Source of the DNA: Halapricum desulfuricans
GTDB lineage: Archaea > Halobacteriota > Halobacteria > Halobacteriales > Haloarculaceae
Reading direction: 5' to 3'
Length of the DNA: 64,000 nt
NCBI RefSeq assembly: GCF_017094505.1
Contig: NZ_CP064787.1
Location: forward strand, 62,001-126,000
Below are positions 4,383 through 39,234 of this stretch, in pieces. Position 1 is the stretch's first letter, and every line of letters begins with the position of its first letter. Made by a program: the position numbers and the translations under genes. Below the pieces are notes generated by a model. It saw nothing but the letters and a program-made list of their open reading frames with translations. It was not told where the DNA came from and searched no databases.

Positions 4383-4408
4383 CGAATACGTTCGCACGAA
4401 GGTATTCG
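4383..4408 (+). promoter_or_regulatory. Two tandem CGAA-N4-TTCG inverted repeats
   Basis: CGAATACGTTCG (4383-4394) and CGAAGGTATTCG (4397-4408) lie 14 bases apart, about one and a half helical turns. The second ends 39 bases before the ATG at 4447. Single copies sit upstream of 4935, 9089, 9234 and 12234. The motif resembles the inverted repeat reported for the haloarchaeal denitrification activator NarO; the exact published consensus should be checked. Confidence 0.6.
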
Positions 4409-4446
4409 TCGATGGCGAAGGTATCCAAGAACCGACGACGATCGCC

Positions 4447-4857
4447 ATGGAAACTGTCACTGTCACGCGGCCGATCGAGGCCTCGTCGGACGAGATCCGG
4501 GACGCGCTCGACGACCTCGAGCCGTTCATGCGGGCGTCGGGGTTCGACGAGGTCGAGATCGACGGCGACCGACTGGAGATCTCGAAGGCGCTGGGGCTGT
4601 TGCGGATATCGCTGACGCTGCGGGTCTCCGAGGACGAGCAGGCGGCGCTGGCGTACGAGCAGATCGACGGGGTCTTCGACTCGATGACGACGGCGTACGA
4701 ACTCACGGAGCGGGACGGGACGACTGCGGTGACCGCCCGCACGGAGTTCGCGCTCGACGCGCCCGGCGGGTCGATTCTCGACGCGACCGTAGTGCAGCGC
4801 CAGCGCCGCAAAGAGCTCGAAGCGCAACTGGACTACCTCGAAGACCGCGTCGAGTGA
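4447..4857 (+). CDS. SRPBCC/CoxG-like protein
   Basis: This 136-aa acidic cytosolic protein starts METVTVTRPIEAS and shows the strand-helix-strand pattern of the SRPBCC (START-like) fold, ending in a long helix (VVQRQRRKELEAQLDYLED) that would close a ligand cavity. CoxG-like members bind small hydrophobic ligands or act as assembly factors. Two CGAA-N4-TTCG sites directly upstream tie its expression to the cluster at 8.8-12.2 kb. The ligand is unknown. Confidence 0.75.
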   Translation: METVTVTRPIEASSDEIRDALDDLEPFMRASGFDEVEIDGDRLEISKALGLLRISLTLRVSEDEQAALAYEQIDGVFDSMTTAYELTERDGTTAVTARTEFALDAPGGSILDATVVQRQRRKELEAQLDYLEDRVE

Positions 4858-4884
4858 TCGACCGCACAGCAGAACGCGACAAGA

Positions 4885-4896
4885 CGAACATGTTCG
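4885..4896 (+). promoter_or_regulatory. CGAA-N4-TTCG inverted repeat
   Basis: CGAACATGTTCG ends 39 bases before the ATG at 4935, the same distance as for the sites ahead of 4447 and 9089. Confidence 0.6.
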
Positions 4897-4934
4897 CAAA
4901 AGCGTTGTTTCGGGACGGGCGTCCAGTGTCGGGC

Positions 4935-5288
4935 ATGAGCAGCGACGGCGCCGAACCGAGTACTGACCGAACGGGGTCCGCGAAGCTGGAACGGCCTGAC
5001 AGCGCCGACGACGACCACGCCGACGACCCCGTCGAAGACGCGCTCGACGCCGTCCGGCGACGCGGTCGGGCGGTCGAACGGCGGGAACTGGAGCGCGCGA
5101 CCGCCCGTCTGGACGCGATGGACGGTCTCACCGACGAACGCCGGCGGGTACTCGCCGAGACGGCGTCGGCGATCGCTACGGGCGTTCTCGCTGCGCCGCT
5201 CGCGTCGCTCTCCAGGGTCGACGGGCTGGACGACGGCGAACTCGAACGGGTCGAATCACTGTTGACGCCGGAAAAGCCGTTGGAGTGA
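4935..5288 (+). CDS. Stand-alone glutamyl-tRNA reductase dimerisation-domain-like protein
   Basis: This 117-aa protein has a low-complexity acidic N-terminus (residues 1-40) followed by helices reading AVRRRGRAVERRELERATAR, then LTDERRRVLAETASAIATGV and LAAPLASLSRVDG. This pattern matches the C-terminal dimerisation helices of glutamyl-tRNA reductase (HemA), which start 5-aminolevulinate and heme synthesis. The catalytic and NADPH domains are absent. It may modulate HemA or another heme enzyme. A CGAA-N4-TTCG site precedes it, in line with a heme or anaerobic role. The homology call is by eye. Confidence 0.6.
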   Translation: MSSDGAEPSTDRTGSAKLERPDSADDDHADDPVEDALDAVRRRGRAVERRELERATARLDAMDGLTDERRRVLAETASAIATGVLAAPLASLSRVDGLDDGELERVESLLTPEKPLE

Positions 5289-5298
5289 AACTGAGGTC

Positions 5299-5335
5299 GG
5301 TGCTGTCGCCCGCCGGCTTTTCCCTCGGCAGCACC
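5299..5335. terminator. Hairpin in the gap after the 5288 stop
   Basis: GGTGCTG (5299-5305) and CAGCACC (5329-5335) pair across a 23-base loop containing CTTTTCCC. It lies between two genes on the same strand. It could end the upstream transcript, but the evidence is weak. Confidence 0.25.
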
Positions 5336-5346
5336 AAGGCTCGTCC

Positions 5347-6021
5347 ATGGCAGACGTTGACTCGGTCCTCTTCGACCTCGACGGGACGCTCTGTCGCCGC
5401 ACGCAGGACATGCAGGCGGTCTACGAGCGGGCGTTCGAGCGGGCCGGTGAGACGCCGTTCGGCGACCCGCCGGCCCTCTGGGAGGCGCTGGACGGGCCGC
5501 CCGATCACGGCGACACGGTCGGATACTTCGGCGCGGGGCTCGCCCGGGTCGCCGCCCAGCACGGTCGATCCAGTGTCGACACGCTCGCGGTCGCCCGCGC
5601 GCTGGTCTCGGAGATCGACGACAGCGCGGTAACCCACCTCCCGGGGGCGGAGACCGCGCTGGAGAGCGCGGCGGCGGTCGGCCCGATCGGCGTCGTCACC
5701 AACGGGCCGAGAGACCGCCAGCGGACGAAACTCGACGCGCTCGGCGTCACGGGTCGCTTCGACGTGGTCGTCTACGGGGCCGAGCTGCCCCGGTCGAAGC
5801 CACACACCGCCCCGTTCGATCGCGCCCTCGAGGAGCTCGATGTCGCCCGAGAGCGGACGCTGTACGTCGGGAACTCGCTGGCCTACGACGTCGCCGGCGC
5901 GCACAACGCCGGGCTGTCGGTGGCGTGGTTGCGAGCGGACGAAGGGGCCGGGGCGTACGAACCGGAGTACGTGATCGACTCGCTGGTCGAACTGCCGGCG
6001 ATACTGCGGGAGGACGGATGA
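5347..6021 (+). CDS. HAD-superfamily phosphatase
   Basis: This 224-aa protein has all HAD motifs: motif I FDLDGT (residues 9-14, nucleophile and general acid Asp), motif II VVTNGP (about 118-123), the motif III Lys in RSKPHT (about 148-152) and motif IV VGNSLAYDVAGAHNAG. The helical cap lies between motifs I and II, typical of phosphoglycolate phosphatase-like or pyrimidine 5'-nucleotidase-like members. It hydrolyses a phosphate ester; the substrate is unknown. The stop codon overlaps the next gene's start (ATGA), so the two are probably cotranscribed. Confidence 0.88.
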   Translation: MADVDSVLFDLDGTLCRRTQDMQAVYERAFERAGETPFGDPPALWEALDGPPDHGDTVGYFGAGLARVAAQHGRSSVDTLAVARALVSEIDDSAVTHLPGAETALESAAAVGPIGVVTNGPRDRQRTKLDALGVTGRFDVVVYGAELPRSKPHTAPFDRALEELDVARERTLYVGNSLAYDVAGAHNAGLSVAWLRADEGAGAYEPEYVIDSLVELPAILREDG

Positions 6022-6980
6022 GTCGGCTGGCTGGCGCGTTCGACGGCGAGTCGGCGCATGCCGCGGCTGCGGCCGCGCTCGAGACGATCGACGACGCCGC
6101 GGTCGCGGTCGAGCCGATCGATCGCGGGCGTCGAAAGCAGACGGCGCTCGCTCGGTTCGCGAACCGGGGACCGGTCGTCGTGCAGGTCTGTGCCGAGCGG
6201 ACCTGGCTTCGTACCGAGGCGGCGCTGTTGGGCGCGGTGCGCCGGCGAACGTTCGTCCCGGTGCCGCCGGTGCTCGCCGCGGGGGCGCACGACGGCGTCG
6301 CGTACATGCTCACCGCCTACGTCGCCGGCGACGATCTCCACGAGGCGTTCGTCTCGATCGGGGAGGGGGCGCGACGGGACCTCGCGCGCTGGTTCGGGGC
6401 GGCGCTCGCCCGGCTCCACGAGGCGTTCCGGTTCGACGGGCACGGGCGACTGGGCCTCGCTGACGGGGCCCTCGCGTCGGACGGCCGGGACTGGGGGCCG
6501 TGGTTCCGGGAATACGGCCGGCGAGCGATCGACCGGCTCCCGTCGGCGTTCGACTCGCTCCGGGGTGATCTCCGAGCCGTCGTCGCGGCCGGGTCCGACG
6601 ACGAGCCCGACGCGCGACTGTTCCCGTGGGACTTCCGGCCGGGAAACGCGCTGGTCGCCGGCGACTCGGTCACGGCGGTCGTCGACTGGGAAGCGCCGCT
6701 CGCGGCCGCGCCTGCCCTCTCGGTCGCCAAATCCGAGTACCTCGTCGCGGACTGGTATATCGCCGATCCCGAACCGCTCCGGCAGGCATTCAGAGGGGGC
6801 TACGCCGACGTCAGGCCCTTTCCGGCGATCCGTCCCGCTCATCGGGTCGCCGCGATCGCCGAGAGCGCTGTCGATTCCGACGGCGAGGTGACCAATCCTC
6901 GATACCCACCGGTCGAAAAGAGCGAAGCTATTGCGTTCCATCGAGACGCGCTGACGGAGGCACTGGCCGAGACCCGATAG
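6018..6980 (+). CDS. Aminoglycoside phosphotransferase (APH) family kinase-like protein
   Basis: This 320-aa protein has the APH/choline-kinase fold. Phosphate-binding lobe residues are at 45-60, the hinge is MLTAYVAGDD, the catalytic loop is FPWDFRPGNALV (about 204-215) and the metal-binding segment is TAVVDWEAP. The usual HGD of the catalytic loop is replaced by PWDF; the Asp and the Asn are kept. Real substrates of archaeal members are mostly unknown, so antibiotic resistance should not be assumed. Translation is coupled to the HAD gene by a 4-base overlap. Confidence 0.8.
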   Translation: MSRLAGAFDGESAHAAAAAALETIDDAAVAVEPIDRGRRKQTALARFANRGPVVVQVCAERTWLRTEAALLGAVRRRTFVPVPPVLAAGAHDGVAYMLTAYVAGDDLHEAFVSIGEGARRDLARWFGAALARLHEAFRFDGHGRLGLADGALASDGRDWGPWFREYGRRAIDRLPSAFDSLRGDLRAVVAAGSDDEPDARLFPWDFRPGNALVAGDSVTAVVDWEAPLAAAPALSVAKSEYLVADWYIADPEPLRQAFRGGYADVRPFPAIRPAHRVAAIAESAVDSDGEVTNPRYPPVEKSEAIAFHRDALTEALAETR

Positions 6981-6996
6981 CGACGCGGGACGATCG

Positions 6997-7158
6997 GGCC
7001 GCTACGGCGAGCAGTTCCGGGTGGTCAACGACCGCGATCCGACGCCGATCCGACAGTCTCTCGCCGACCTCACCGGGGTCGAGCCGACCGCAGTTGACCC
7101 GCTCGGCGTGCGCCACAAGAGCCCGGACGCCTGGGAGCTGACGACGGTTCGCCCCTGA
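6997..7158 (+). pseudogene. C-terminal remnant of a DUF2249-like protein
   Basis: The frame encodes a coherent tail containing QFRVVNDRDPTPIRQSLAD and ending SPDAWELTTVRP-stop. The VNDRDPxP motif and the final WEL...VRP resemble the C-terminal half of DUF2249 domains, also seen in the intact gene at 8835-9089. No start codon or N-terminal half is present; the frame runs back into the APH gene in another phase. I read it as a decayed partial copy. Palindromic element C follows directly. Confidence 0.5.
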
Positions 7159-7178
7159 TTTGATCGCAGGCGCTTCGG

Positions 7179-7256
7179 TATTCATGCGGGATACCAATTC
7201 GAACTGATCTGGCACGACGGCGTGCCAGATGTCTCTACGAACGTATCGCCACCAGA
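7179..7256. repeat. Double-palindrome element, copy C (inverted, one arm decayed)
   Basis: The central stem ATCTGGCACG (7207-7216) and CGTGCCAGAT (7221-7230) is identical to copy A. The right arm ACGTATCGCCACCAG matches the reverse complement of copy B's left arm, so C is inverted relative to A and B. The left outer arm has lost the TGGTGGC core while the adjacent ATACCAATTCGAA tract remains. Confidence 0.75.
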
Positions 7257-7339
7257 TCACCGTGATTACCGCATGTCTGTTCCGGAGCGACCGCACGAAG
7301 TAGTTCGGTCGTGACGGTAACTTGTCACAGTAATAACTA

Positions 7340-8614
7340 TCATTCTCCGCCCATGTTCCGGATATTCTCGGGGATGTCCATGATAAATCCCTCTATTTGA
7401 GTCGCGTCGTCTGCTACCTGTGCAGGCCGTCCCCGTTCCCAGACTGATCGCCGCTCGCCGGATCGCGTCTCGATCCGATAGGTCAGCTCGAAGGGGTCGT
7501 CGTTCTCGACAGCCAGATCGACGTCTTCCCAGACCCGCTCTCTGTCGTCCGGGACCATGATGTCGTCGCCCCAGCTCACCGTGCCGCACTCGATCTGCTC
7601 GGCCGTGTAGCCGGTCAGCTCCTCGACACGGCCGCGGACCATCTCCATCGGCCATCCCGGTCGTTGCTCGCATCGATAGACGATTCCGGGCAGGTTGTCG
7701 ACGATCGTCCGGAGTCGCTGTTCGCGTGCTCTCTGGTCGGTGATGTCGAACGAATAGCCGAGGAGCCCGACGATGTCGCCGTCCTCGTCGCGCCAGGGCA
7801 CTTTCGACGTGAGGAAATACCTGTCTCGAGCTTCGTCGTAGGTTTCTTTATCGATAATCTGCTCCCCCTCTTCGATGACCCGCAGGTCATCTTGATACGC
7901 CTCCTCGGAGAACTCATCCGGGACATCGTATTCGACTTCTGTATCCCGTTTACCGATCCAGCGCTCGGGATCGTCGTAGAACTCGCTGCTCACCCAGAGG
8001 TGGCGCGCCTCCCGGTCCTTGATGAACAGGTGTATCGGGACGAAATCGAACAGGGCGTCGAGAAGCCGTTTGTGGCGTCGCAACTCCCGTTCGCGTTCCT
8101 TTCGCTCCTCGATTTCGTCTCGGAGTCGCCGTTCGGTCGCCTCGAGTTGCTCGGTGTAAGCTTCCAGCTGCTGGTTCTGTGCCGTGAGTTCCCGGTTCAG
8201 CGCACGCAATTCCGATTTCGTCTGATGTTTCTCGATCTCGTTGCGGACCGCATCGGCCAGCACGCTGTACTGAGAGGTGGGGTCACCCCCCTTCTGGAGG
8301 TACCGATCGGCTCCGAGGTTGAGCGCGTCGATCGCGACCTCCTCTCGCCCCTTGCCGGTGAACACGATGAACGGGATATCGCTGTCGAACCCCTCCCGGA
8401 TCGTCTCCAGCAATTCGAGCCCGTCGATATCGGGCATTTGATAGTCGGAGATGATCGCGTCGAACGTCTCCCGCTCGAATCGGCCCAGCGCCTCGGTCGC
8501 CGACAGAGCTGTCTCGACGGTGAAACGATCGTCTTCCCGGGGCAAGAACTCGGCGATCAGTTCCGAGATGCCCGGATCGTCGTCGACCGCCAGCACTCGA
8601 AACGACTCGTCCAT
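7340..8614 (-). CDS. Response regulator receiver with two PAS domains, no kinase domain
   Basis: This 424-aa protein has a REC domain at residues 1-120 (acidic DDD at 11-13, phospho-acceptor Asp57 in ISDYQMPD, Thr86 and Lys88), then a coiled coil (about 125-185, repeated E/R/L heptads). One PAS domain follows (about 190-300, ending LLGYSFDITDQRARE), then a second (about 302-420). No histidine kinase or HTH domain is present, so output must go through a partner. The ATG at 8614 is preferred: GGAGG lies just upstream and a TATTTAT box is about 30 bases away. An upstream in-frame start at 8653 would lie on the TATA box. Confidence 0.85.
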   Translation of the reverse strand: MDESFRVLAVDDDPGISELIAEFLPREDDRFTVETALSATEALGRFERETFDAIISDYQMPDIDGLELLETIREGFDSDIPFIVFTGKGREEVAIDALNLGADRYLQKGGDPTSQYSVLADAVRNEIEKHQTKSELRALNRELTAQNQQLEAYTEQLEATERRLRDEIEERKERERELRRHKRLLDALFDFVPIHLFIKDREARHLWVSSEFYDDPERWIGKRDTEVEYDVPDEFSEEAYQDDLRVIEEGEQIIDKETYDEARDRYFLTSKVPWRDEDGDIVGLLGYSFDITDQRAREQRLRTIVDNLPGIVYRCEQRPGWPMEMVRGRVEELTGYTAEQIECGTVSWGDDIMVPDDRERVWEDVDLAVENDDPFELTYRIETRSGERRSVWERGRPAQVADDATQIEGFIMDIPENIRNMGGE

Positions 8615-8640
8615 CGCCTCCACGTGATATCGGGTGACAC

Positions 8641-8647
8641 ATAAATA
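8641..8647 (-). promoter_or_regulatory. TATA box of the REC-PAS-PAS gene
   Basis: TATTTAT on the minus strand lies about 30 bases before the ATG at 8614. It supports that start over the upstream in-frame codon. Confidence 0.55.
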
Positions 8648-8730
8648 CCACACCTTGCTCGCGCTCGACGTGCGCTACCGTCTCGACTGCTGGAAAACCG
8701 AACGTGAACCGCCTCGGCCTGCCACGCTTG

Positions 8731-8811
8731 ATACGGTCGGTTGTAACGATTTACCGGTACGATCGCCTAACGGATGCGATCGATCTGGAACAGACTTACG
8801 ACCGACCGTAT
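8731..8811. repeat. 81-bp double-palindrome element of a second family
   Basis: Terminal arms ATACGGTCGGTTGTAA (8731-8746) and TTACGACCGACCGTAT (8796-8811) are inverted repeats with one mismatch. A central stem GATCGC (8761-8766) and GCGATC (8776-8781) encloses a 9-base loop. It has the same size and two-stem plan as copies A-D but unrelated sequence. It occupies most of the gap between the convergent-side ends of two minus-strand genes. I recall similar palindromes in other haloarchaeal genomes but cannot verify this here. Confidence 0.75.
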
Positions 8812-8834
8812 GAGACGGACGCACGTTCACCGGG

Positions 8835-9089
8835 TCACGGCTTCCAGATCGCCGTGTAGACCGGATCCTCGCCCGTCGACTCGTACTCGAGCCCTCGCTC
8901 CTCGAGTTTCGGGAACAGGTGCTGGGGCCGCCGGTCGTTGATCTGGATCAACACGACGTCCCCGAGGTCGACGACCGCCTCGAGTGTCTCCTGAAGGGGT
9001 TTCGGCGGCGGCAGTTCGCGGACGTCGAGCGTCTCGTGGCCGGCTCGGTCCGGGACCGCCTCGCTGTCGAGCACGTCTGTCGGCTCCAT
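8835..9089 (-). CDS. DUF2249-domain protein
   Basis: This 84-aa protein reads LDVRELPPPKPLQETLEAV then VVLIQINDRRPQHLFPKLEE and ends VYTAIWKP, the DUF2249 pattern (LDVRxLPPP ... NDRRPxxLFPxLEERG). DUF2249 genes often accompany nitrogen-oxide reduction, hemerythrin or radical SAM genes, and the biochemical role is unknown. The ATG at 9089 is chosen; an upstream ATG at 9142 would add 18 unconserved residues and overlap the CGAA-N4-TTCG site at 9128. It is divergent from the radical SAM gene. Confidence 0.8.
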   Translation of the reverse strand: MEPTDVLDSEAVPDRAGHETLDVRELPPPKPLQETLEAVVDLGDVVLIQINDRRPQHLFPKLEERGLEYESTGEDPVYTAIWKP

Positions 9090-9127
9090 AGTCGTCGCGT
9101 GGAGACGCGTGCGGGCAACGGTTCTCC

Positions 9128-9139
9128 CGAACGTGTTCG
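9128..9139 (-). promoter_or_regulatory. CGAA-N4-TTCG inverted repeat (DUF2249 side)
   Basis: CGAACGTGTTCG lies 39 bases upstream of the DUF2249 ATG at 9089, at the spacing seen for the sites ahead of 4447 and 4935. No strong TATA box follows, as expected for an activator-dependent promoter. Confidence 0.6.
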
Positions 9140-9175
9140 TCATCCGGTCCACTCGACGTGCCGTATCGACACAGA

Positions 9176-9187
9176 TGAATATGTTCG
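9176..9187 (+). promoter_or_regulatory. Near-consensus TGAA-N4-TTCG site (radical SAM side)
   Basis: TGAATATGTTCG lies 47 bases before the ATG at 9234, with one base off the consensus. Together with the site at 9128 it gives each of the two divergent genes its own element. Confidence 0.5.
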
Positions 9188-9233
9188 GGACGGTTGACTC
9201 GGGCGTTGCACGACAACGATCGGGGAGAGACGC

Positions 9234-10355
9234 ATGCATCCCCGGGATATCGATCTGTCGGAGCGGCCGTTCGTCCTCGTCTGGGAGGTCACCCAGGCCT
9301 GTGAACTCGAGTGCAAGCACTGCCGGGCGGACGCCCGGCCCGACCGCCGTCCGGGCGAGCTGACGACCGCGGAGGGAAAGCAGTTGCTCTCGGAGGCGGC
9401 CCAATTCGGTGAGAATCAGCTCGTCGTGCTCTCGGGCGGTGACCCGCTCGTCCGGGACGACCTGGTCGAACTCGTCCGGTACGGCGTCGAGCAGGGACTG
9501 TCGATGACACTCACGCCCAGCGGAACCGACGCGCTGACGCCCGAGATTGTCGATGAACTGGCCGACGCGGGGCTGCGACGGCTGGCGCTGAGCGTCGACG
9601 GCGCGACCGCCGAGGCCCACGACGAGTTCCGCGGCGAGCCGGGCAGTTTCGAGGGGACGGTCTCGGTCGCGCGCCACGCCCGCGAACGGGGCATCCCGCT
9701 GCAGATCAACACGACCGTCTGTCAGGAGACGCTCCCCGAGCTTCCCGACCTGGCAGATCTGGTGGCGGACCTCGGGGCCGTGCTCTGGTCGGTGTTCTTC
9801 CTCGTGCCGATCGGCCGCGGACAGGTCCTCGATCCGATCGATCCCGAGCGGTCGGATCGAGTCATGGAGTGGCTACTCGAACAGTCCCAGGAGCGATCGT
9901 TCGGTGTCAAAACGACCGAAGCGCCACACTACCGCCGGGTCGCGACGCAGGCACGGCAGGGCGGCGAGGCCGTCGCACCCGCCACGGCCGACGAGATAGG
10001 CCGGCGGACGAGCGTCCGGGCCGGCAACGGGTTCGCGTTCGTGAGCCACCTCGGGGAGGTGTACCCGTCGGGGTTCCTCCCCGAGTCGGCCGGCTCGGTC
10101 CGGGACCGCTCGATCGTCGACGTCTACCGGAACTCCGACCTGTTTACCGATCTGCGGGATGTCGAGGCCCTGAAAGGGAAGTGCGGGGCCTGCGAGTACC
10201 GCGGCGTCTGCGGGGGGTCTCGCTCGCGGGCGTACGCCTACACCGGCGACCCACTCGAGAGCGATCCGCTGTGCCCGTACGTTCCCCCAGAGTACGACGG
10301 GCCGGTGCCCGATCAGGTGATCGAGGGATCGGTTTCGAATCCGGCCGACGACTGA
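9234..10355 (+). CDS. Radical SAM/SPASM enzyme, heme-type (NirJ/AhbC-like)
   Basis: This 373-aa protein has the radical SAM motif CELECKHC (Cys23, Cys27, Cys30) that binds a 4Fe-4S cluster, a GGDPL motif at about 66-70, and a C-terminal SPASM-type Cys region (KCGACEYRGVCGGSRSRAYAYTG and a later Cys). This arrangement is shared by heme-modifying enzymes NirJ (heme d1) and AhbC/AhbD (alternative heme pathway) and related haloarchaeal proteins. It probably acts on a porphyrin or peptide in the cytosol. Neighbours (DUF2249 and a CcoN/NnrS-like membrane protein) point to nitrogen-oxide metabolism. The exact reaction is inferred. Confidence 0.82.
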   Translation: MHPRDIDLSERPFVLVWEVTQACELECKHCRADARPDRRPGELTTAEGKQLLSEAAQFGENQLVVLSGGDPLVRDDLVELVRYGVEQGLSMTLTPSGTDALTPEIVDELADAGLRRLALSVDGATAEAHDEFRGEPGSFEGTVSVARHARERGIPLQINTTVCQETLPELPDLADLVADLGAVLWSVFFLVPIGRGQVLDPIDPERSDRVMEWLLEQSQERSFGVKTTEAPHYRRVATQARQGGEAVAPATADEIGRRTSVRAGNGFAFVSHLGEVYPSGFLPESAGSVRDRSIVDVYRNSDLFTDLRDVEALKGKCGACEYRGVCGGSRSRAYAYTGDPLESDPLCPYVPPEYDGPVPDQVIEGSVSNPADD

Positions 10356-10374
10356 TCGTGCGGTGACAGAAACT

Positions 10375-11697
10375 ATGCAACAGTTCACGGGCGATCTCGA
10401 TACCGACAGTCAGCCACCGCTTGCGATCCCCTTCGCGCACTTCGTCCTCGGCGTGGCGATCCTCCTGATCGGCGGTGCGATCGCCGGTCTGGGGTCGTTC
10501 GTTCCGGGGATCGACCCCGCCGGGGCCGGACCGTTACACCTCCTGCTGGCGGGCTGGATCGGGCTGACGATCATGGGCGCGATGACGCAGTTCGTCCCCG
10601 TCTGGTCGGGGACGAGTCTGTACTCCCGACGGCTGTCGGTCGCCAGTCTCTGGCTGGTGACGCTGGGCGTCGCCGGACTGGTTGCAGGGTTTCTCTTCGA
10701 GTACACGTGGCTCCTGATCGGCGCGAGCGTGCTACTGATCGGGTTCTGGACGTTCGCGTACAACATCGTGCGTACGTTGCCCCCTGTGCGGACGTTCGAC
10801 ATCACCGAGACGCACTTCGCGTTCGCGCTCGCCAGTCTGCTCGTCGCGACGGTCCTCGGCTGGGTGCTCGCCACTGACATCGCCTTCCGGGTGCTCGGCG
10901 GCCTGATAGCGCCGTCACGGATCGTCCTCTCGCACCTGACGCTGACGGTCTTCGGGTTCGTCCTCGCGACGATCGTCGGGGCGCTCTACCAGCTCGCCCC
11001 GATGTTCACGCAGGCGGAGACGACGGCGGTGGATGCCCACCTCGCACACGTCGAGATGGTCGCGCTCCCGGGCGGGATCGCGTTGCTCGCGACCGGTCGG
11101 TTGCTCGGCTCGACCCGCGTCGGGACGTTCGGCGGTGTCGTCTTCCTGACCGGCGCGCTGGCGTTTTCGGGGTTTCTCGCCCGGCAGCTATGGCGCGCTC
11201 GCGTCGAGGTCGGGCCGCTGCTCCGGCGGTACGGACTCGTGGTGGCGTCGCTGGTCGGCTGGATCGCGCTCACGGTCCCGTACTGGCTGGTCAACCCGGT
11301 CTCGGTGTTCACGCGCTTTGGCGGGCCGATGGGGACGCACTTGCTTTTCGTCGGCGTATTCACCCTGACGATCGTCGGCACCTTCTATCACGTCGTGCCC
11401 TTCATCGTCTGGTATCACCGCTACAGCGACCGGCTCGGGTACGAGTCGGTGCCGATGGTCGACGACCTCTACGACGACCGCATCGCGACCGTCGAGTTCT
11501 GGCTGCTCGCGGTCGGGCTGGCCGGCCTCTGGATCGGCGACGTCCTCGCGACGACGCGGGTGATCGCCGTCGGCGGGAACCTCCTCGGCGCGGGGATCCT
11601 GTTGTTCGGCGCGAACATGGCCGGCGTCGTCTGGCGACACCGCCCGGAGACCGTCCGGGAGGTGCTCGCCACGCTGGCGGGTCAGTCCACAGCGTAA
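10375..11697 (+). CDS. Polytopic membrane protein, NnrS / heme-copper oxidase subunit I-like
   Basis: This 440-aa protein has about 12 transmembrane helices and conserved-looking intramembrane His residues in HLLLAGWIGLTIMGAMTQF, LSHLTLTVFGF and GTHLLFVGVFTL, plus a YHVVPFIVWYHRY loop. The pattern fits NnrS or CcoN-like heme/copper membrane proteins tied to NO stress and denitrification. It follows the radical SAM gene by 19 bases on the same strand, so it is probably cotranscribed. The ATG at 10375 is used; GGTGA lies 8 bases upstream, and a GTG at 10363 would add four residues. No nirK or norB is in the window. Confidence 0.65.
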   Translation: MQQFTGDLDTDSQPPLAIPFAHFVLGVAILLIGGAIAGLGSFVPGIDPAGAGPLHLLLAGWIGLTIMGAMTQFVPVWSGTSLYSRRLSVASLWLVTLGVAGLVAGFLFEYTWLLIGASVLLIGFWTFAYNIVRTLPPVRTFDITETHFAFALASLLVATVLGWVLATDIAFRVLGGLIAPSRIVLSHLTLTVFGFVLATIVGALYQLAPMFTQAETTAVDAHLAHVEMVALPGGIALLATGRLLGSTRVGTFGGVVFLTGALAFSGFLARQLWRARVEVGPLLRRYGLVVASLVGWIALTVPYWLVNPVSVFTRFGGPMGTHLLFVGVFTLTIVGTFYHVVPFIVWYHRYSDRLGYESVPMVDDLYDDRIATVEFWLLAVGLAGLWIGDVLATTRVIAVGGNLLGAGILLFGANMAGVVWRHRPETVREVLATLAGQSTA

Positions 11698-11727
11698 CGA
11701 AGCGACGCCGGTGAGAGCGACGGACTC

Positions 11728-12234
11728 TCAAAACGGGAGATCGGCCTGTTCGTCTCCACTCGAGTCCGCAAGTTCGCCGTCAGCGTCGACCTGCAACTGT
11801 TCGTTGATCGCGTCGCTGTGCTGGTGGCGGTCGGCGATCCGGACCTCGACTGCCTCGAACCCGTGGCGGTCGGCGAGGTCGTTGAGCGCGCGGCTCGCCG
11901 CGGTCGTGAGCACCTCGCCCTGCGGACAGAAGGCGGTCGTCGGCGTGAACTCGACGTGCAGCACCTCGTCGTCTTCGACCGCGTACCTGAACCCGGCATC
12001 GGGATGTCGGGGATCGAGGTTGAGCTTCGCGAGGTTGTATCCGAACGTCGTGTCGTAGACGCCCCGCTCCTCGAAGATGTCCCGGACCGTCCGGTGGATC
12101 TCGACGTGTTCCTCGCCTTCGAGTACCGCGTGATCGGTCAGGCGCGGTCCCGGATCCGGGACGTTCGACGGGACGAACTCCCCGTACTCGTCGAACTCCG
12201 GCCCGCCGCTGTCGCCTCGACTGAACAGACCCAT
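11728..12234 (-). CDS. DUF59/MIP18-like acidic protein
   Basis: In this 168-aa protein the central part (about 45-135) resembles the DUF59 (MIP18/PaaD) fold: FEERGVYDTTFGYNLAKLNL parallels the DPEIPVNIxDLGL motif and FTPTTAFCPQGEVL parallels the MTLTxPxCP motif with its conserved Cys. Such proteins help iron-sulfur cluster delivery. The N- and C-terminal tails are acidic and probably disordered. A CGAA-N4-TTCG site lies 42 bases before the ATG. Orientation is convergent with the NnrS/CcoN-like gene. The family call is moderate. Confidence 0.6.
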   Translation of the reverse strand: MGLFSRGDSGGPEFDEYGEFVPSNVPDPGPRLTDHAVLEGEEHVEIHRTVRDIFEERGVYDTTFGYNLAKLNLDPRHPDAGFRYAVEDDEVLHVEFTPTTAFCPQGEVLTTAASRALNDLADRHGFEAVEVRIADRHQHSDAINEQLQVDADGELADSSGDEQADLPF

Positions 12235-12275
12235 CGTACCTCCCCGTTCGGTCTCACCGTCCCTGTGGACTATCC

Positions 12276-12287
12276 CGAACACGTTCG
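12276..12287 (-). promoter_or_regulatory. CGAA-N4-TTCG inverted repeat
   Basis: CGAACACGTTCG lies 42 bases upstream of the ATG at 12234. It is the last member of the motif set found between 4.4 and 12.3 kb. Confidence 0.55.
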
Positions 12288-31456: not shown

Positions 31457-31861
31457 TCAACGGTCGACAGCGCCGCTCTCCCCGTCGTTCGCGTCGACGA
31501 ACGAGCGGACGAGGTGGCGCTCGACGGCGTTGAGTCGCTGTGAAATCGCCGACTCCGAGCGGTCGAACGCCGCGGCGATGTCGGCGAGGCGGGCGCTTCG
31601 CGGGTTGTCGTAGTACCCGCACGCGACCGCGTAGCTGGCGGTCGAGCGCTGTGCGTCGGTGATGTCGTCGACGGCGATGACGTGCGGGCCCGCATCGGTC
31701 GATCCGACGGCGTCGATCGAGAACGACCCGTCTTCCATCGATCGCCCGAGAAACAGGAGCAACTCGCGGGCCGCGTCCGGCTCGGGAAACGAGAGCGTCA
31801 TTCTGATTCCGGCCTCGTCCGGGTCGGTCGTCGCCCGTGTCTCGTGCTGTGACACGGTCAC
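31457..31861 (-). CDS. Bat-type HTH regulator at the end of the molybdoenzyme operon
   Basis: In this 134-aa protein the C-terminal HTH (about 75-128) reads ITDAQRSTASYAVACGYYDN then LADIAAAFDRSESAISQRLN, the Bat/HTH_10 pattern. The short N-terminal half has no Cys cluster. The GTG start at 31861 overlaps the stop of the chaperone gene, so it is translationally coupled. Its place in the operon suggests feedback control of the reductase genes. Confidence 0.8.
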   Translation of the reverse strand: MTVSQHETRATTDPDEAGIRMTLSFPEPDAARELLLFLGRSMEDGSFSIDAVGSTDAGPHVIAVDDITDAQRSTASYAVACGYYDNPRSARLADIAAAFDRSESAISQRLNAVERHLVRSFVDANDGESGAVDR

Positions 31862-32487
31862 CCCTCCGCGTGCGTGCTCGCCCGCTCTAGCATCTGTTCC
31901 ACCCGGTCCTGCTCCGGCCCGGTGACGCCGAGTTCCGATCGCAATCGCTCGATCGCGGCGACCAGCTGCTGGACACACCACCGATGGATCGGGGCCTGCG
32001 CGGCCGCCCGGTCGGTCAGCGCGGCGAAGGCGTCGATCCAGTCGAGTTCCGTCTCGACGAACGCGGCGAGTTCGTCCCGCTCGCCGGCTTCGGCCAGCAG
32101 ACCTGCATACTGGAGCTGGAGCGCGACGTGATCGGGCGGGTACGCCTCCGGAACCGTCGCCTCGAGCGCGTCGTACCGGCGCTGCATCGCGGCGGCCGGC
32201 GGGCCACCCATCAGCCCGCTGCGGTCGCCGTACCACTCCTTGTAGGGAGAGGCGGCCGGCGGCGCGAACGGCGTCACCAGCGCCCCGAACAACGCCTCGT
32301 AGTCCTCGGTGAGATCGCGCCCGGAGACGGAGGGCGGCTCGTCGGGGTCGACGCCGACCCGCTCCAGCAGCTCGGCGAGGGCATCGGGCTCGTTTTCGAG
32401 GGTCTCCTGAACCGCCCGATCCGGATGGCGCAGGCAGTTCGACAGCCCGACGAGCGCGTCCGCCCACGCGTCGTCTTGGTCCGTCAT
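31858..32487 (-). CDS. TorD/DmsD-like molybdoenzyme chaperone
   Basis: This 209-aa, mostly helical and acidic protein has the TorD-family feature of a central YEALFGALVTPFAPPAASPY segment and a late HRWCVQQLVAAIERL helix. TorD-like proteins bind the Tat signal peptide of molybdopterin enzymes and help cofactor insertion before export. It sits 2 bases after the NrfD-like gene in an operon with the Tat-exported oxidoreductase it probably serves. Confidence 0.8.
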   Translation of the reverse strand: MTDQDDAWADALVGLSNCLRHPDRAVQETLENEPDALAELLERVGVDPDEPPSVSGRDLTEDYEALFGALVTPFAPPAASPYKEWYGDRSGLMGGPPAAAMQRRYDALEATVPEAYPPDHVALQLQYAGLLAEAGERDELAAFVETELDWIDAFAALTDRAAAQAPIHRWCVQQLVAAIERLRSELGVTGPEQDRVEQMLERASTHAEG

Positions 32488-32489
32488 CG

Positions 32490-33632
32490 TCACAGTCCCG
32501 GAACGGCCAGCGGCGTCTTGACGGCGGCCATCAGGATCACGTACCGCAGCAGGAACCCGCCGACGAGCACGAGCGTGTACTTCAGCGCGTAGCCGCCGGT
32601 CAGCAGCCGCTCGCCCCACAGCGTCTCGCCGACGTCGGTGAACTGATGCAGCATCGTCACCGTGATCGAGAGGGCGACTGGAAGCCCCGTCCCCAGGATC
32701 AACACGCCGCCGACGAACTCCAGTCCGTAGGTGCCGAACAGCGCGGTCTCGGTCACGTTCGCGGCGACGTCCGGGGAACTGGCCAGATACGACACCAGCA
32801 GCCCGATCGCCACCAGTTCCACGACGATGATCGCGTCGTCGGTCAGGCAGAACCGGTGGTTGGTCCGGGTCAGCGCGCCGCCGCTGGCGACCGTCCCCAG
32901 AAGGGCCGCCGAGATTCCCGTCGAAACGCCGCTCAACAGGAAGATGAAGGGGAGGTACGTCCGCTCCCACAGCGGGACGACCGCGACGTCGCTCAGCAAC
33001 ATCGCCGTGTAGGCGATAAGCAGCAGCGCGAGCGCCCCGCCGACGAGCCGGAACGCGCCGTGGACGCGGCTGGGCGGGCGTGTCGTGTCGGCGATCGTAT
33101 CCAGCAGCCACACGATCCCGCGGTCCGCCGACCACGGTGCGACGCCGTCGATCCAGCCGAGGATCCGCCGGGGGAACATGCTCAACCCGGACTGAGACTG
33201 CAGGTTCGCCCCGAAGTGCAACCACAGCGTCTCCAGCGCCGCGACGACCGTGAACAGCACGATCACCCACGTCCCGATGACCAGCCACGAGCCGAAGTTG
33301 GTGAAAAGCACCGGGAACGTGAGCGCGCGCAGCGGCGCACCCAGGTGCGACAGCAGGGCGACGCCGCCGACGGCGATCGAGAGGACGCTGAGCACCGATC
33401 CCCAGCGAGCGGTCTCGGCGCAGGCGTAGCGGTGCTCGTCGTCGTCGGTCCTGGCGAGCAGGATCTTGCCGAGCCAGCTGTCCGTGTCCATCAGGCTCTT
33501 CATCAGGCTCGCCCACGAGGAGGTCACGTACGCCCCGCCGGCGGTGCCACCGAGGAAGAGATACAGCGCGATGAACTGCGCCCAGTGGACGTGGGGCAGC
33601 CAGAGCCATTCCGAGCCACCTGTGACACTCAT
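32490..33632 (-). CDS. NrfD/PsrC-type membrane anchor subunit
   Basis: This 380-aa protein has about nine membrane helices of the NrfD family: HVHWAQFIALYLFLGGTAGG at the start, APLRALTFPVLFTNFGSWL, and LLSGVSTGISAALLG. NrfD subunits anchor the molybdenum and Fe-S subunits and transfer electrons between them and (mena)quinone. The gene lies between the ferredoxin and chaperone genes with 2-base gaps. No heme-binding pattern is clear, as expected for this family. Confidence 0.88.
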   Translation of the reverse strand: MSVTGGSEWLWLPHVHWAQFIALYLFLGGTAGGAYVTSSWASLMKSLMDTDSWLGKILLARTDDDEHRYACAETARWGSVLSVLSIAVGGVALLSHLGAPLRALTFPVLFTNFGSWLVIGTWVIVLFTVVAALETLWLHFGANLQSQSGLSMFPRRILGWIDGVAPWSADRGIVWLLDTIADTTRPPSRVHGAFRLVGGALALLLIAYTAMLLSDVAVVPLWERTYLPFIFLLSGVSTGISAALLGTVASGGALTRTNHRFCLTDDAIIVVELVAIGLLVSYLASSPDVAANVTETALFGTYGLEFVGGVLILGTGLPVALSITVTMLHQFTDVGETLWGERLLTGGYALKYTLVLVGGFLLRYVILMAAVKTPLAVPGL

Positions 33633-33634
33633 GG

Positions 33635-34303
33635 TTAGTCCCCTGCGTTGTCAGGCGTCGCGGCGTGTTCGACCATATTGAGGTTCTCTTCGCCCTGGAA
33701 TGGCTCGACGATCACCCGCTCGTTGTTCGATTTGAACCGTTCGGCTGCCGCCTGGGAGGCCTCTTTGACCATCTCCTTTTCCGGTCCGGCCTTGATCGCC
33801 CCGCCCACGCAGTCGGAGACGCAGTTGGGCTGGATCGGATCGTCCTGTTCGTTTTTCGACTCCGCGCCCGCGCCGCTGCCCGGGCCCTGATCGAGACACA
33901 TGTTGCACTTCGACATCAGCCCGTTGTCGCCGTAGGTCGGCGCGCCGAACGGACACGCCCACCCGCAGTACTTGCAGCCGATGCACTTGTCCTGGTCGAT
34001 GGTGACGATCCCGTCGCTGTCGCGCTTGACGATCGCTTCCGTCGGGCAGACCTCCTCGCAGGGCGCGTCGTGACAGTGCATACACGACATCGAGATCGGG
34101 ACGTTCTCGATCGGCGCGGACGTATCGGCGTCGTACTCCTCGGACGCGGGGTGGGTCCCCTTCTCGTGGTGGGTGACGGTCCGCCAGTCGTCGGCGTCGG
34201 AATCCCGGCCGTGGAACTGCTTGCAGGAGATCGAACACGCGTGACAGCCGATACACCGGTTGGGATCGAAGTAAAACACCCAGTGGTCCTGTCTGTCAGC
34301 CAT
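33635..34303 (-). CDS. Four-cluster ferredoxin subunit (PsrB/DmsB/PhsB type)
   Basis: The 222-aa protein starts near RCIGCHACSISCKQFHGRD (Cys17, 20, 23, 27) and has further clusters in SCMHCHDAPCEEVCP, CIGCKYCGWACP and CNMCLD...CVSDC. This four 4Fe-4S pattern is the electron-transfer subunit of DMSO, polysulfide and thiosulfate reductases. A short insert GPGSGAGAESK lies between the last Cys groups. There is no own signal peptide, so it would be co-exported with the catalytic subunit. Confidence 0.92.
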   Translation of the reverse strand: MADRQDHWVFYFDPNRCIGCHACSISCKQFHGRDSDADDWRTVTHHEKGTHPASEEYDADTSAPIENVPISMSCMHCHDAPCEEVCPTEAIVKRDSDGIVTIDQDKCIGCKYCGWACPFGAPTYGDNGLMSKCNMCLDQGPGSGAGAESKNEQDDPIQPNCVSDCVGGAIKAGPEKEMVKEASQAAAERFKSNNERVIVEPFQGEENLNMVEHAATPDNAGD

Positions 34304-34305
34304 GG

Positions 34306-36621
34306 TCAGTCACCCCCCGCCGGCGTGACCTCGACCGCGATGTGTCTGTCTACCTGTCCGGTGATCGGGTCCATCTGTGTGTCGTGAAGGGTCATCGTGT
34401 TCATTCCGTCCGCCGACCGCTCGCGGGCGTCCTCGCCGGTCGTGATCGCCGAGGTCTGGCCGAACCCATACTGTGAGGTGACGAAGCCGGGCCGGGCGCG
34501 CTCGGTGACGATCGCCATGAGTTCGCCGCTGCCGCTCTCGGATTCGATCGTCACCAGATCGCCTGTCTCGATGTCGCGCTCCTCGGCGTCCTGCGGGTGG
34601 ACATAGAGGTAGTTCCCGCGGTAGTCCTCCTCGCTCAGCTGGTTTTGCTTGGCGAACTGGTCCTGCAGCCGCTCGTGGGGCTGGTTGCTTCCGTGGGAGA
34701 AAAACACCGAGCGAACGTCAGTGAACTCCAGGGGGTACGCCTCGGAGGTCGAATCGCCGTACGTGCCCGGCGGAATCCATTCGGGGGCAGTGTCCATTCC
34801 GGCCTCCTCGGCGGCCGTCGCGAACGACGATACCTGATCGAGGTCGAATCGGAAGGTGAAGTCCTCGCCGTACTGCTCGTAATCGTACTCCTCGAGGAGT
34901 TCGTAGTTCGTCTCGCCGCTATCGATTTCTTCGAGGGTCAGATCCAGCGTCGAGAGCTGGTCGTCGATGTACTCTTCGTGGGAATCCCACTGCTGGAAGA
35001 TCGTCCAGTCGTCGTTGTCCGTCCGCTCAGCCATCGCGTCCGCGATGCCGGTCAGGATGTCGAAGTCGGGCTTGGTGTTCCACTGCGGATCAACGGCGGC
35101 TTTCGAGCCCGTGATCCACTTGTGGTTGGGGTAGGCACTCCAGTTGCCGGTCCCGAGGGTATCTTTCTCCAGCTGAGTGGCCTCCGGCAGGACGATGTCC
35201 GCCCGCCGGGAGACGCCGTTCCAGTAGGCGTCGATCGAGATGACGAGATCCATCGCCTCGATCGCCTCGACCCACGCGTCGGCGTTGCCGTCTTTCAGCG
35301 GGTCGTCGTGGTGACAGACGATGCCGTTGATGTGGCCGTTCTCGACCATCTCCGGGACGAGGTTGTGCGCGATCCCCTCGATGTGCCGGACGGGGTAGTC
35401 GGAATACTCGTCGTATTTCTTGAGCGCCGGCTCCTTGTACTCGGCGCGCGGCGTGTAGTCCTCCTCACAGACCTGGCCGAACGATGCCGTCGCGGGGTAC
35501 TTCCAGAGCCGGAGCCCGCCGGGCCTGTCGATGTTGCCGACAAGCCCGTTGAGCGCGGTGATGTTCTGGGTCGCCTTCCAGCCGTTGCCGGCCTGTGCCG
35601 TGCCGGTCCAGACGGAGATGCCCGCCTGCGGGGCCGCCTCGGCGAACCCGCGTGCGACTCGTCGGATCTGGTCGGCGTCGAGGCCGGTGATCTCGGCCGC
35701 CCGCTCGGGGGGCATCTCGGCGGCCGCCTCCCGGTAGGCATCGAAGCCGTAGGTGTGGTTCTCGACGAACTCCTGATCATACAGGTCTTCCTCGATGATG
35801 ACGTTGGCCATCGCAAGCGCCAGCGCCCCGTCGGTCCGGGGCTCGATCGGCATCCACTCGTCGGACTTCTGGGCCGTGATCGTGTGCTGTGGATCGATCG
35901 TGACCAGCGTCGCGCCGTTCTCTTCGATCGCCTCGAGGACGCCTTTGGCCTCGAACTGGCCGGCGAAAGAGTTCAGAACGTTCCGGCCCCAGGCGATGAT
36001 GTACTCGGAGTTCTGGTAGTCGGGGACGCGGTTGTTCGAGCCGACGCCCATCATCCCGCCGGTGACGAAGGTCGGGCCGGCACAGACGTGGATCCCGCGG
36101 CTGATCCGCTCGGGCGAGCCGTAGAGGTCCCGCCAGACCGTCCGGAAGATGTCCGTCTCGGCCCAGCTGGTGGCGTCGAGGAACGTCTCCGCACCGTTCT
36201 CCTCGGCGAACGCGACCAGCCGTTTCGCGGTCTCATCGAAGGCCGTCTCCCAGTCCACCTTCTGGAGGTTCCCGTCCTCGTCCCGAATGTGGGGCTCTTT
36301 GATCCGCTTTGGGTCGTGAGTCTTGTCCAGTTGTGCCAGTCCCTTCGGACAGAGCGTCCCCTCGGTGTCCGGTCCGGCGCTGCCCCGCGGATGGCCGTCG
36401 ACACCGGTGAGGTTGACGACGGTGCCGTCGCGGACGTAGGCTTTCTGTCCGCAGTTGTGGCTACACATCCAGCAGTTGCCGAAGGCTGTCGACAGCTCTC
36501 CGGACGGGGCGCTGTCCGTCCCGTCGCCGGAGAGACAACCGCCGAGGGCTGCCACCCCGGCGGCCGCCCCGGCCGTCTTCAGCAGGTTCCGACGAGTGAG
36601 CGTCCCCTCGCGTTCACTCAT
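34306..36621 (-). CDS. Tat-exported molybdopterin oxidoreductase, Phs/Psr-like catalytic subunit
   Basis: The 771-aa protein has a Tat signal (Arg10-Arg11 in LTRRNLLK) with lipobox LGGC (Cys29), so it is probably a lipoprotein outside the membrane. 4Fe-4S ligands are Cys50, Cys53, Cys57 and Cys91. The candidate Mo ligand is Cys180 in GIHVCAGPTF; DmsA uses Ser there, so a polysulfide, thiosulfate or similar reductase is favoured. The bis-MGD domains follow, ending VEVTPAGGD. The start at 36621 is chosen over 36663 because GAGGTGG lies just upstream and the Tat motif then falls in the usual place. The substrate is inferred. Confidence 0.88.
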   Translation of the reverse strand: MSEREGTLTRRNLLKTAGAAAGVAALGGCLSGDGTDSAPSGELSTAFGNCWMCSHNCGQKAYVRDGTVVNLTGVDGHPRGSAGPDTEGTLCPKGLAQLDKTHDPKRIKEPHIRDEDGNLQKVDWETAFDETAKRLVAFAEENGAETFLDATSWAETDIFRTVWRDLYGSPERISRGIHVCAGPTFVTGGMMGVGSNNRVPDYQNSEYIIAWGRNVLNSFAGQFEAKGVLEAIEENGATLVTIDPQHTITAQKSDEWMPIEPRTDGALALAMANVIIEEDLYDQEFVENHTYGFDAYREAAAEMPPERAAEITGLDADQIRRVARGFAEAAPQAGISVWTGTAQAGNGWKATQNITALNGLVGNIDRPGGLRLWKYPATASFGQVCEEDYTPRAEYKEPALKKYDEYSDYPVRHIEGIAHNLVPEMVENGHINGIVCHHDDPLKDGNADAWVEAIEAMDLVISIDAYWNGVSRRADIVLPEATQLEKDTLGTGNWSAYPNHKWITGSKAAVDPQWNTKPDFDILTGIADAMAERTDNDDWTIFQQWDSHEEYIDDQLSTLDLTLEEIDSGETNYELLEEYDYEQYGEDFTFRFDLDQVSSFATAAEEAGMDTAPEWIPPGTYGDSTSEAYPLEFTDVRSVFFSHGSNQPHERLQDQFAKQNQLSEEDYRGNYLYVHPQDAEERDIETGDLVTIESESGSGELMAIVTERARPGFVTSQYGFGQTSAITTGEDARERSADGMNTMTLHDTQMDPITGQVDRHIAVEVTPAGGD

Positions 36622-36770
36622 CGGAACCACCTCGGAAGACGCCGAAACGACTCTGTCGGTCATCCCACGCGTCGCACCGTCCGAAATCCGCTGTCGATGT
36701 CTGCGTTGCCACGATCATGACTCTCCCATACCTGTAGGGAACACCCGAACCAGCAAAGCGGACACTCGGT

Positions 36771-36790
36771 ATCAATTAAGCCTTTATATA
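36771..36790 (-). promoter_or_regulatory. Core promoter of the molybdoenzyme operon with downstream AATTGAT box
   Basis: The minus strand has TATATAAA (36790-36783), five bases, then AATTGAT (36777-36771). The same arrangement with the same spacing is at 38496-38515. The predicted transcription start near 36757 leaves a leader of about 135 bases. The box between TATA and start is a likely operator. Confidence 0.65.
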
Positions 36791-36887
36791 CTCGGGAGCG
36801 AGACGCCGTCAGCAGTCTTGTTCGATAAATCCAAGAATAGACACCAACGCTTTGTACCGGGCGGTGCAAGTTCAGTTGTGAGACACC

Positions 36888-37148
36888 ATGGCTACTGAAC
36901 CGTCAAACTCGCTCGATACGCTGGTGCGCGTAGCGGAGGGGGAAAACGAACTCACGAAAGCGCAGTTCGAGGAGATCGTCGACTCGATGGAGACGCGAAA
37001 GAAGTACAGCGTCGAGTCGTACAACATGCTCTGCACGTCGGCCGACGTGGTCGTCGTCTGTGACATGGACACCCAGGAGTTCATCCAGATCGAGGTCCCC
37101 CTTGACGCGGACTCTGAGGACGAAGTGATCGTCACCCGGGATATCTGA
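36888..37148 (+). CDS. Orphan 86-aa acidic protein divergent from the reductase operon
   Basis: The protein starts MATEPSNSLDTLVRVAEGEN, has a helical half and then beta strands ADVVVVCDMDTQEF and IQIEVPLDADSEDEVIV. There is one Cys in NMLCTSAD and one in VVVCDMD. It has no signal peptide or known domain. It sits between the reductase operon and the sulfurtransferase gene, so a role in the same pathway is plausible. The upstream gap 36622-36887 holds the shared promoter region. Confidence 0.65.
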   Translation: MATEPSNSLDTLVRVAEGENELTKAQFEEIVDSMETRKKYSVESYNMLCTSADVVVVCDMDTQEFIQIEVPLDADSEDEVIVTRDI

Positions 37149-37176
37149 TCGCCGACGAACCTTCCCGACGAGCGGA

Positions 37177-38454
37177 TCAGGATCCGCAGCCGAATCCGCC
37201 ACCGCCGGTGTCGGCACCCATGTACTCGATGTCGTTTTTCTTGACCTGATTGGACTCGAGCTGTGCGAGTTCGGTCAGCTCCTCGTTGAGGTCCGGATCG
37301 ATCGTGACCTGATCGGTCGCCGTGATCTCGCCTTCGGTCCGACCGTTGATGTCGGTCCGCCAGGTGTCGTTCGGTACCGGGTCCTGCTCGCCGTTGTACT
37401 GCTTCCACTGGAACTTCCAGGAGCCGTCATAGAGCGCGACGTTGTCGTACCCGAGGACCCCGTCGAGCGCGAAGAACGCGAGCGTCCCCTTGAAGCCGCT
37501 GTGACATAGCGTGACGATCTGATCGCCGTCCTCGATGCCGTCGTAGCCGAAGACGTGACTCTCGATATCGCCGGCCGATTTCCACGGGACCGACTCCGTG
37601 AACGCGCCCTGGGTGTAGCTCGCCGGCGGATCGAGGATGCTGCCCGCGATCTTCGCGTCCTGATCCGGACCGCGGAGATCGAGGATTGACGCCTCGCTCT
37701 CGCCGGCGTTCTTGGCGTCGACCAGCTGGATCATCTCGTTGAGGCCCTTCCGGAGCTCGTAGTTCGGCGTCTCGAAGTCCTCGACGGGGTAGTTACTCTC
37801 GGGCGTCTCGGGCGTCTCGTAGACCAGTTTGTCCGCTTCCTCGTAGGCGGTCGGGCCGCCGTTGAGCACCTTGACGCGCTGGCGGGGGAAGCCCCAGTAC
37901 CGGAGCGTCCAGTACGCCCGGGCGTTGTACATCGGGTTGTCCCCGGAGAGAACGACCACGGTGTTCGGGCCGACGCCCGCGCTCTGGATGACCTCGTCGA
38001 TGACCGAGCCGGACGCGACGAGTTTCTTTGCTTCCCCGAGCCCGTCGAGGCGAGTCTCGGTCAGCGTTGCCGGGCCTTCGGCGTCTTCGGTCGACCACTT
38101 GACCGCACCCGGAACGTGGCCACCGCCGTAGTTGCTCGCGTCGACTCTGAGCACGACGACGCGGTCCTCGTAGACGTCGTCCGTGTTGACGAGACCCGCG
38201 TCGATCCACTCTTTCAGCGTCGCCGGTTCGATCAGCGCGCTCTCAGTCGCTGTCGGATCGGGTTGCTCCGTCTGCTGTGGTTCGGTCGTCTGCTGTGGCT
38301 CGGTCGTTTGCTGTGGTTCGGTCGTGGTCGTCGTGTCTCTCGGTTCGGTCGTCGCCCCTCCGTCGTCGCCGCCACCGGAACAGCCAGCGATCGCGGCGAC
38401 ACCTGCGGCACCGGACAGTGCGAGGAACGTTCGGCGGTCGAGTTCGCGTTCCAT
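37177..38454 (-). CDS. Exported two-domain rhodanese sulfurtransferase lipoprotein
   Basis: This 425-aa protein has a Tat signal (Arg7-Arg8 in DRRTFLAL) with lipobox Cys25, a Thr/Gln/Pro-rich linker with repeated TTEPQQ (about 40-75), then two rhodanese domains. The second carries catalytic Cys317 in LCHSGFKG; the first has LSGDNPMY in the corresponding loop and lacks Cys. The C-terminus ends in GGGGFGCGS with Cys423. It would move sulfane sulfur from thiosulfate outside the membrane. The ATG at 38454 is chosen over an upstream GTG at 38466. Confidence 0.88.
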   Translation of the reverse strand: MERELDRRTFLALSGAAGVAAIAGCSGGGDDGGATTEPRDTTTTTEPQQTTEPQQTTEPQQTEQPDPTATESALIEPATLKEWIDAGLVNTDDVYEDRVVVLRVDASNYGGGHVPGAVKWSTEDAEGPATLTETRLDGLGEAKKLVASGSVIDEVIQSAGVGPNTVVVLSGDNPMYNARAYWTLRYWGFPRQRVKVLNGGPTAYEEADKLVYETPETPESNYPVEDFETPNYELRKGLNEMIQLVDAKNAGESEASILDLRGPDQDAKIAGSILDPPASYTQGAFTESVPWKSAGDIESHVFGYDGIEDGDQIVTLCHSGFKGTLAFFALDGVLGYDNVALYDGSWKFQWKQYNGEQDPVPNDTWRTDINGRTEGEITATDQVTIDPDLNEELTELAQLESNQVKKNDIEYMGADTGGGGFGCGS

Positions 38455-38495
38455 ACCTGCACACACGGATTCCGGTGGGATCGGCCTAGCTCTGA

Positions 38496-39170: not shown

Positions 39171-39234
39171 ACGCGAATCGTACGAAGGTAGGTGTATGAA
39201 TACCTGTGGTTGGTTCGCACGTCTTCTGAACGAC

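Follow-up and report, generated by a model that had tools for sequence, protein, structure and literature searches.

The window, i.e. the whole 64 000-nt stretch of Halapricum desulfuricans DNA that was analysed, carries between positions 4383 and 12287 a group of mostly small genes interspersed with copies of the palindrome CGAA-N4-TTCG. A motif scan of the window located six exact copies there (4383, 4397, 4885, 7296, 9128 and 12276), all six intergenic and within about 8 kb; dinucleotide shuffling gave 1.9 exact sites per window on average, and six or more in 2 of 100 shuffles. The earlier note on this DNA had listed five of them, together with a near match at 9176, and every one was found where it had been placed; its list lacked the copy at 7296, which lies downstream of a gene, has no start codon at a matching distance and is probably a chance match.

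Genes associated with the sites

The first gene (4447–4857, plus strand) encodes a 136 amino acid SRPBCC protein (Polyketide_cyc2, PF10604). Ahead of it stands a tandem pair of predicted operators, to which, as to all the operators below, no strand is assigned: CGAATACGTTCG at 4383–4394, 53 nt before the ATG, and CGAAGGTATTCG at 4397–4408, whose edge is 39 nt from the ATG (4447). The pair is found in genome G001 too, and most of the more distant SRPBCC orthologues have a site upstream. In the sister species G002 and G005, SRPBCC comes second in a DUF2249 operon, and it is this operon that the site precedes; the idea that SRPBCC has a site immediately before it in all sister species was therefore dropped. 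The next gene (4935–5288, plus strand) codes for a stand-alone GluTR dimerisation-domain protein of 117 amino acids (PF00745), with CGAACATGTTCG at 4885–4896, also with its edge 39 nt from the ATG (4935); in other genera, similar small proteins are encoded next to DUF2249 or the radical SAM protein. The DUF2249 gene itself (8835–9089, minus strand; PF10006, 84 amino acids) is preceded by CGAACGTGTTCG at 9128–9139, once more 39 nt from the ATG (9089). A response regulator with two PAS domains (7340–8653) lies beside DUF2249 here as well as in G005 and G002, and has no operator.

On the plus strand, 9234–10355 encodes a TIGR04053 radical SAM/SPASM protein (489.6 bits, cut-off 395), which scores 338.5 bits, below the cut-off of 500, against the AhbD model (NCBIfam TIGR04545). 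Its site, TGAATATGTTCG at 9176–9187, has one mismatch and lies 47 nt from the ATG (9234); the counterpart in G002 is exact (CGAATATGTTCG). In Haloferax the corresponding gene stands between those for halocyanin and DUF2249 and matches HVO_2144; by gene order, the sole basis for this assignment, the two are orthologues. HVO_2144 was published as ahbD, and its deletion impairs anaerobic growth, which is rescued by heme (PMC5746218). The genome contains a second TIGR04053 gene (G000:C1:479181-480191, L354; 467.6 bits, 58% identity to the copy in the window), which has no site and adjoins succinyl-CoA ligase-like genes. The names that had been given to the SRPBCC, GluTR dimerisation-like, DUF2249 and radical SAM genes in the earlier note were each confirmed by Pfam.

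Downstream of the radical SAM gene, 10375–11697 (plus strand) encodes a 440 amino acid protein with 12 transmembrane segments and the fold of heme-copper oxidases (HCO-fold protein). Its best fold matches are cbb3 oxidase and NO reductase (TM about 0.6–0.73); His 55, 147, 187, 339 and 422 are invariant and His 22 nearly so, and there is no adjacent His pair as in CuB. In most other genera this gene has its own site at about 39 nt. The last gene of the group (11728–12234, minus strand) encodes a DUF59/MIP18-like protein whose best fold match is CIAO2B (Fe-S targeting), with weak scores (E 2e-3). Its predicted operator, CGAACACGTTCG at 12276–12287 (identical to CGAACGTGTTCG on the gene strand), is 42 nt from the ATG (12234).

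A small peptide is a further member in sister species and other genera, namely a CGCGG-family precursor of a radical SAM-modified RiPP (L364:8279-8581, L363:5554-5841 and L232:15581-15880, the last being the copy on which the TIGR03995 assignment was tested). The window yielded no copy of its gene; the promoter at the corresponding position seems to serve the GluTR-like gene here. In Halomarina a different radical SAM-partnered RiPP (Htur_1727 family; L367:1840-2139) likewise has a near-match site at 39 nt.

Position of the site and promoter organization

That three of the sites lie exactly 39 nt from the ATG, as claimed from the sequence beforehand, was borne out by measurement (4397, 4885 and 9128), the other two distances being 42 and 47 nt. 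In an alignment of 147 promoters, the operator spans −50 to −39 relative to the ATG and is followed by an extra G at −38. The core promoter consensus consists of A at −33 and −27, W-A at −11/−10 and a pyrimidine at −1, and contains no TATA box, in agreement with the weak TATA boxes noted previously; the SRPBCC promoter deviates from this consensus. Where the ATG is 40–47 nt away, the steps W+28/A+29 and Y+38/R+39, numbered from the edge of the site, mostly keep their place in most of the gene families tested, the exceptions being the radical SAM and halocyanin genes. The DUF59-like promoter, for instance, keeps W-A at +28/+29 in spite of its distance of 42 nt. Because these steps are mostly static when the ATG shifts, the distance appears to be fixed to a putative transcription start rather than to the ATG.

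Judged by their sequences, the promoters of the regulon look leaderless and nearly TATA-less. Leaderless transcripts represent 72% of the protein-coding transcripts of Haloferax volcanii (PMC4983044), and with leaderless transcription the ATG would fall at the same place as the probable transcription start. Placement of the site immediately before the BRE/TATA region of a weak promoter fits an activator, from which we infer activation and which speaks for the activator position proposed earlier. Mutation of the motif is known to reduce the activity of the nos and nor promoters of Haloferax mediterranei (PMC10062603).

Frequency and conservation of the motif

The bare motif occurs in 149 exact copies in the 2.94-Mb contig. 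Of 24 exact sites in the first 0.5 Mb, window excluded, 19 are coding, and none is followed by a called start at 36–44 nt. With most copies of this stretch inside genes, the eight fixed bases are not diagnostic by themselves; position and conservation are. The comparison of motif frequency inside and upstream of genes, by which the earlier note proposed to judge the regulon, would fail on the bare motif (the same 19 coding sites), and genome-wide enrichment was set aside as uninformative. Restricting the spacer to the purine/pyrimidine form CGAAYRYRTTCG leaves 13 copies in the genome, but all those with a CGCG spacer are coding, and this discriminator was dropped too.

Position proved highly conserved. 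In other genera, a site lies within 36–44 nt of the start in 51 of 52 DUF2249 orthologues (42 exact sites at 39), 57 of 62 HCO-fold orthologues, 66 of 84 DUF59-like orthologues and 31 of 43 CGCGG peptide orthologues. In 80 named haloarchaeal loci a total of 134 exact sites fall 39 nt ahead of a called start, other positions averaging 1.17 per nt, and sites are 14 times as dense in non-coding as in coding DNA; as the loci were picked by the presence of one regulon gene and their sequences are related to one another, these counts are a measure of conservation and not independent trials. The position is conserved across dozens of genera, and this comparison of sequences confirms the regulon as real, with CGAA-N4-TTCG as its predicted operator.

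hcp and denitrification genes

Away from the window cluster and the regulator gene described below, the only non-genic CGAAYRYRTTCG site in the genome precedes hcp (hybrid cluster protein). In G005, CGAACAAGTTCG occupies the same place in the hcp promoter, with conserved flanks, and both species checked (this genome and G005, which are close relatives) have an ATG at a distance of 39 nt. No hcp gene was found on haloarchaeal plasmids among the best 30 of 45 matching records.

The search for denitrification genes covered NirK, NorB and NarG. For NirK the best score in the genome is 42.9 bits (cut-off 296), with none above. No NorB was found: the single COX1-family member over the cut-off is an oxidase. 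For NarG, no molybdenum oxidoreductase comes near the cut-off, the types present being thiosulfate/polysulfide, DMSO or tetrathionate enzymes. Genome-wide, a single heme-copper oxidase gene scores over the Pfam cut-off, at G000:C1:2197663-2199015 (L352). Thus the reductase genes NirK, NorB and NarG are not part of the regulon here and the accessory regulon is kept. In G002 the same cluster has norB as a neighbour, together with nirK-like and halocyanin-like genes, and NirK is above the cut-off on that contig as well, so the present genome looks like a reduced denitrification island. Where present, these classical targets of the motif have their sites farther out, nirK at 68 and 79–80 nt and norB at 67–68 nt, and the core promoter described above is absent from both.

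A candidate regulator

The regulator first suspected (39235–39894, minus strand) has DmsR_N and HTH_10 domains and adjoins a PhsA-like molybdenum enzyme (34306–36663). The genome has at least four regulators of this type, the three further paralogues likewise having molybdenum oxidoreductases as neighbours, and the promoters beside the four showed no exact site. The neighbouring PhsA-like molybdenum operon is the more likely target of the protein, which we consider an unlikely regulator of the sites and no longer the first choice. The region 31858–39894 of the window, with the PhsA-like enzyme, a rhodanese-type sulfurtransferase and this regulator, looks like an operon for respiration of sulfur compounds; the paralogues (L355, L356 and L357), one per separate molybdenum oxidoreductase operon, form with it a family of local regulators.

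A search for HTH_10 homologues gave 15. An HTH_10 protein of 212 amino acids (contig positions 2,038,935–2,039,573) is encoded by a gene with a perfect site 9 nt ahead of the ATG. Its G002 orthologue (94% identity), also with a site 9 nt before the ATG, is head-to-head with an operon DUF2249-SRPBCC-CGCGG-GluTR-like whose sites lie at 39. Relatives are encoded within the same islands of Haloferax larsenii, Halarchaeum, Halomarina and Natronorubrum, and are at most 10 kb away in 37 of the 80 named loci. Because of these gene neighbourhoods and its own sites, the 212 amino acid protein, which has no conserved cysteine, is the likely candidate for the regulator of the CGAA-N4-TTCG regulon; a site 9 nt before the ATG suggests that it may repress itself. 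The regulator reading the motif in H. mediterranei was reported as unidentified, the suspect being encoded in the nirK-nor cluster (PMC11218638); it is a short Bat-like protein, like the 212 amino acid protein, of which it is probably the orthologue.

Comparison with known systems

The palindrome is identical to the motif published for haloarchaeal denitrification promoters (PMC5746218, PMC10062603, PMC11218638), including CGAAYATDKTYG of H. mediterranei (PMC10062603, PMC11218638); the likeness to the NarO target pointed out earlier is therefore real. The motif of the NarO regulon is credited to Hattori et al. 2016 where PMC5746218 cites that work. DUF2249, radical SAM/ahbD and clustered sites are common to both systems, and DUF2249 genes and motif-bearing genes are induced in denitrifying H. 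mediterranei (PMC11218638). They differ in that the NarO sites are 66–79 nt from the ATG (nirK, nor, nos) and those described here at 39, in that here NirK, NorB and NarG were not found and hcp, SRPBCC, GluTR-like and DUF59-like genes are added, and in that the probable regulator is not of the DmsR_N type.

The NO regulators of bacteria have hcp and the heme-copper protein NnrS among their core targets (PMC1274295). In the regulons of NsrR, HcpR, DNR and NnrR, which occur in non-denitrifiers too, hcp and a heme-copper-type membrane protein stand under one palindromic operator (PMC1274295). Here the hcp and HCO-fold genes, with a putative role in NO defence, likewise share one operator type, as in NsrR/HcpR regulons. 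The bacterial regulators are of FNR or NsrR type, whereas the candidate here is an archaeal HTH_10 protein acting on an archaeal promoter.

Interpretation

Chance matches to a short GC-rich palindrome would be in keeping with 149 genomic copies that are mostly coding in the stretch examined, but the six in 8 kb are all intergenic and the conservation of position across dozens of genera refutes this explanation, which we regard as hardly credible. It is also improbable that the DmsR_N regulator at 39235–39894, or a paralogue, is the activator: it does belong to the HTH_10 family, and NarO and DmsR have been described as short Bat-like regulators of anaerobic respiration, yet each of the four adjoins its own molybdenum operon, whose promoter has no exact site. 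Rather more plausible, though still unlikely, is that the sites belong to the known NarO/denitrification regulon sensing low oxygen or nitrate, left as a partly or wholly functionless remnant after loss of the reductases. The motif and the accessory genes match the denitrification islands of Haloferax and Halarchaeum, and the same cluster adjoins nirK and norB in the sister species G002. However, in the genome analysed here (G000) and in G005, neither of which has NirK above the cut-off, the proteins are 94–99% identical and the sites are retained, and the kept hcp site suggests a regulon in current use.

With NirK, NorB and NarG not found, NO defence and heme/Fe-S maintenance fit better than a denitrification regulon. 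Of the single heme and nitrogen-oxide regulon imagined in the earlier note, its unity is upheld by the shared conserved operator and a role in denitrification is not, none of the three reductases having been found. The reading that we favour, and hold to be reasonably likely as a whole, is that of an activator-driven regulon for heme and Fe-S maintenance under NO or anaerobic conditions, with the 212 amino acid HTH_10 protein as regulator and starts 39 nt from the operator. A dimeric activator would bind CGAA-N4-TTCG directly upstream of a nearly TATA-less, leaderless promoter, and transcription would begin at the ATG or just ahead of it, at a distance of 39 nt from the edge of the operator. 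In this Halapricum the regulon would comprise SRPBCC, GluTR-like, DUF2249, the TIGR04053 radical SAM and HCO-fold proteins and DUF59/MIP18-like, and, beyond the window, hcp and the gene of the likely regulator (2,038,935–2,039,573), a gene that its own product may repress. It would most likely respond to nitric oxide or nitrosative stress at low oxygen and would keep heme and Fe-S proteins functional. To judge from gene content and sites, the latter probably switch on defence against nitric oxide rather than denitrification in this Halapricum. More tentatively, the 212 amino acid protein may be an archaeal NO-responsive activator of TATA-poor promoters that fixes the start exactly 39 nt from the operator and controls a core NO-defence stimulon (hcp, HCO-fold, DUF2249, DUF59-like, GluTR-like and SRPBCC) independent of denitrification.

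The operator was already known. In the literature examined, to which the main NarO (Hattori 2016) and DmsR papers do not belong, we found neither the geometry nor the regulator candidate nor a denitrification-free version with hcp; the geometry may in part be already published. If correct, the fixed geometry would allow promoter, start site and start codon to be predicted precisely across haloarchaea. Functionless families (DUF2249, the stand-alone GluTR dimerisation domain, the TIGR03995 CGCGG peptide and the CuB-less heme-copper-fold protein) would be tied to one testable NO-related function, and a concrete candidate is offered for the missing regulator of H. mediterranei (PMC11218638).
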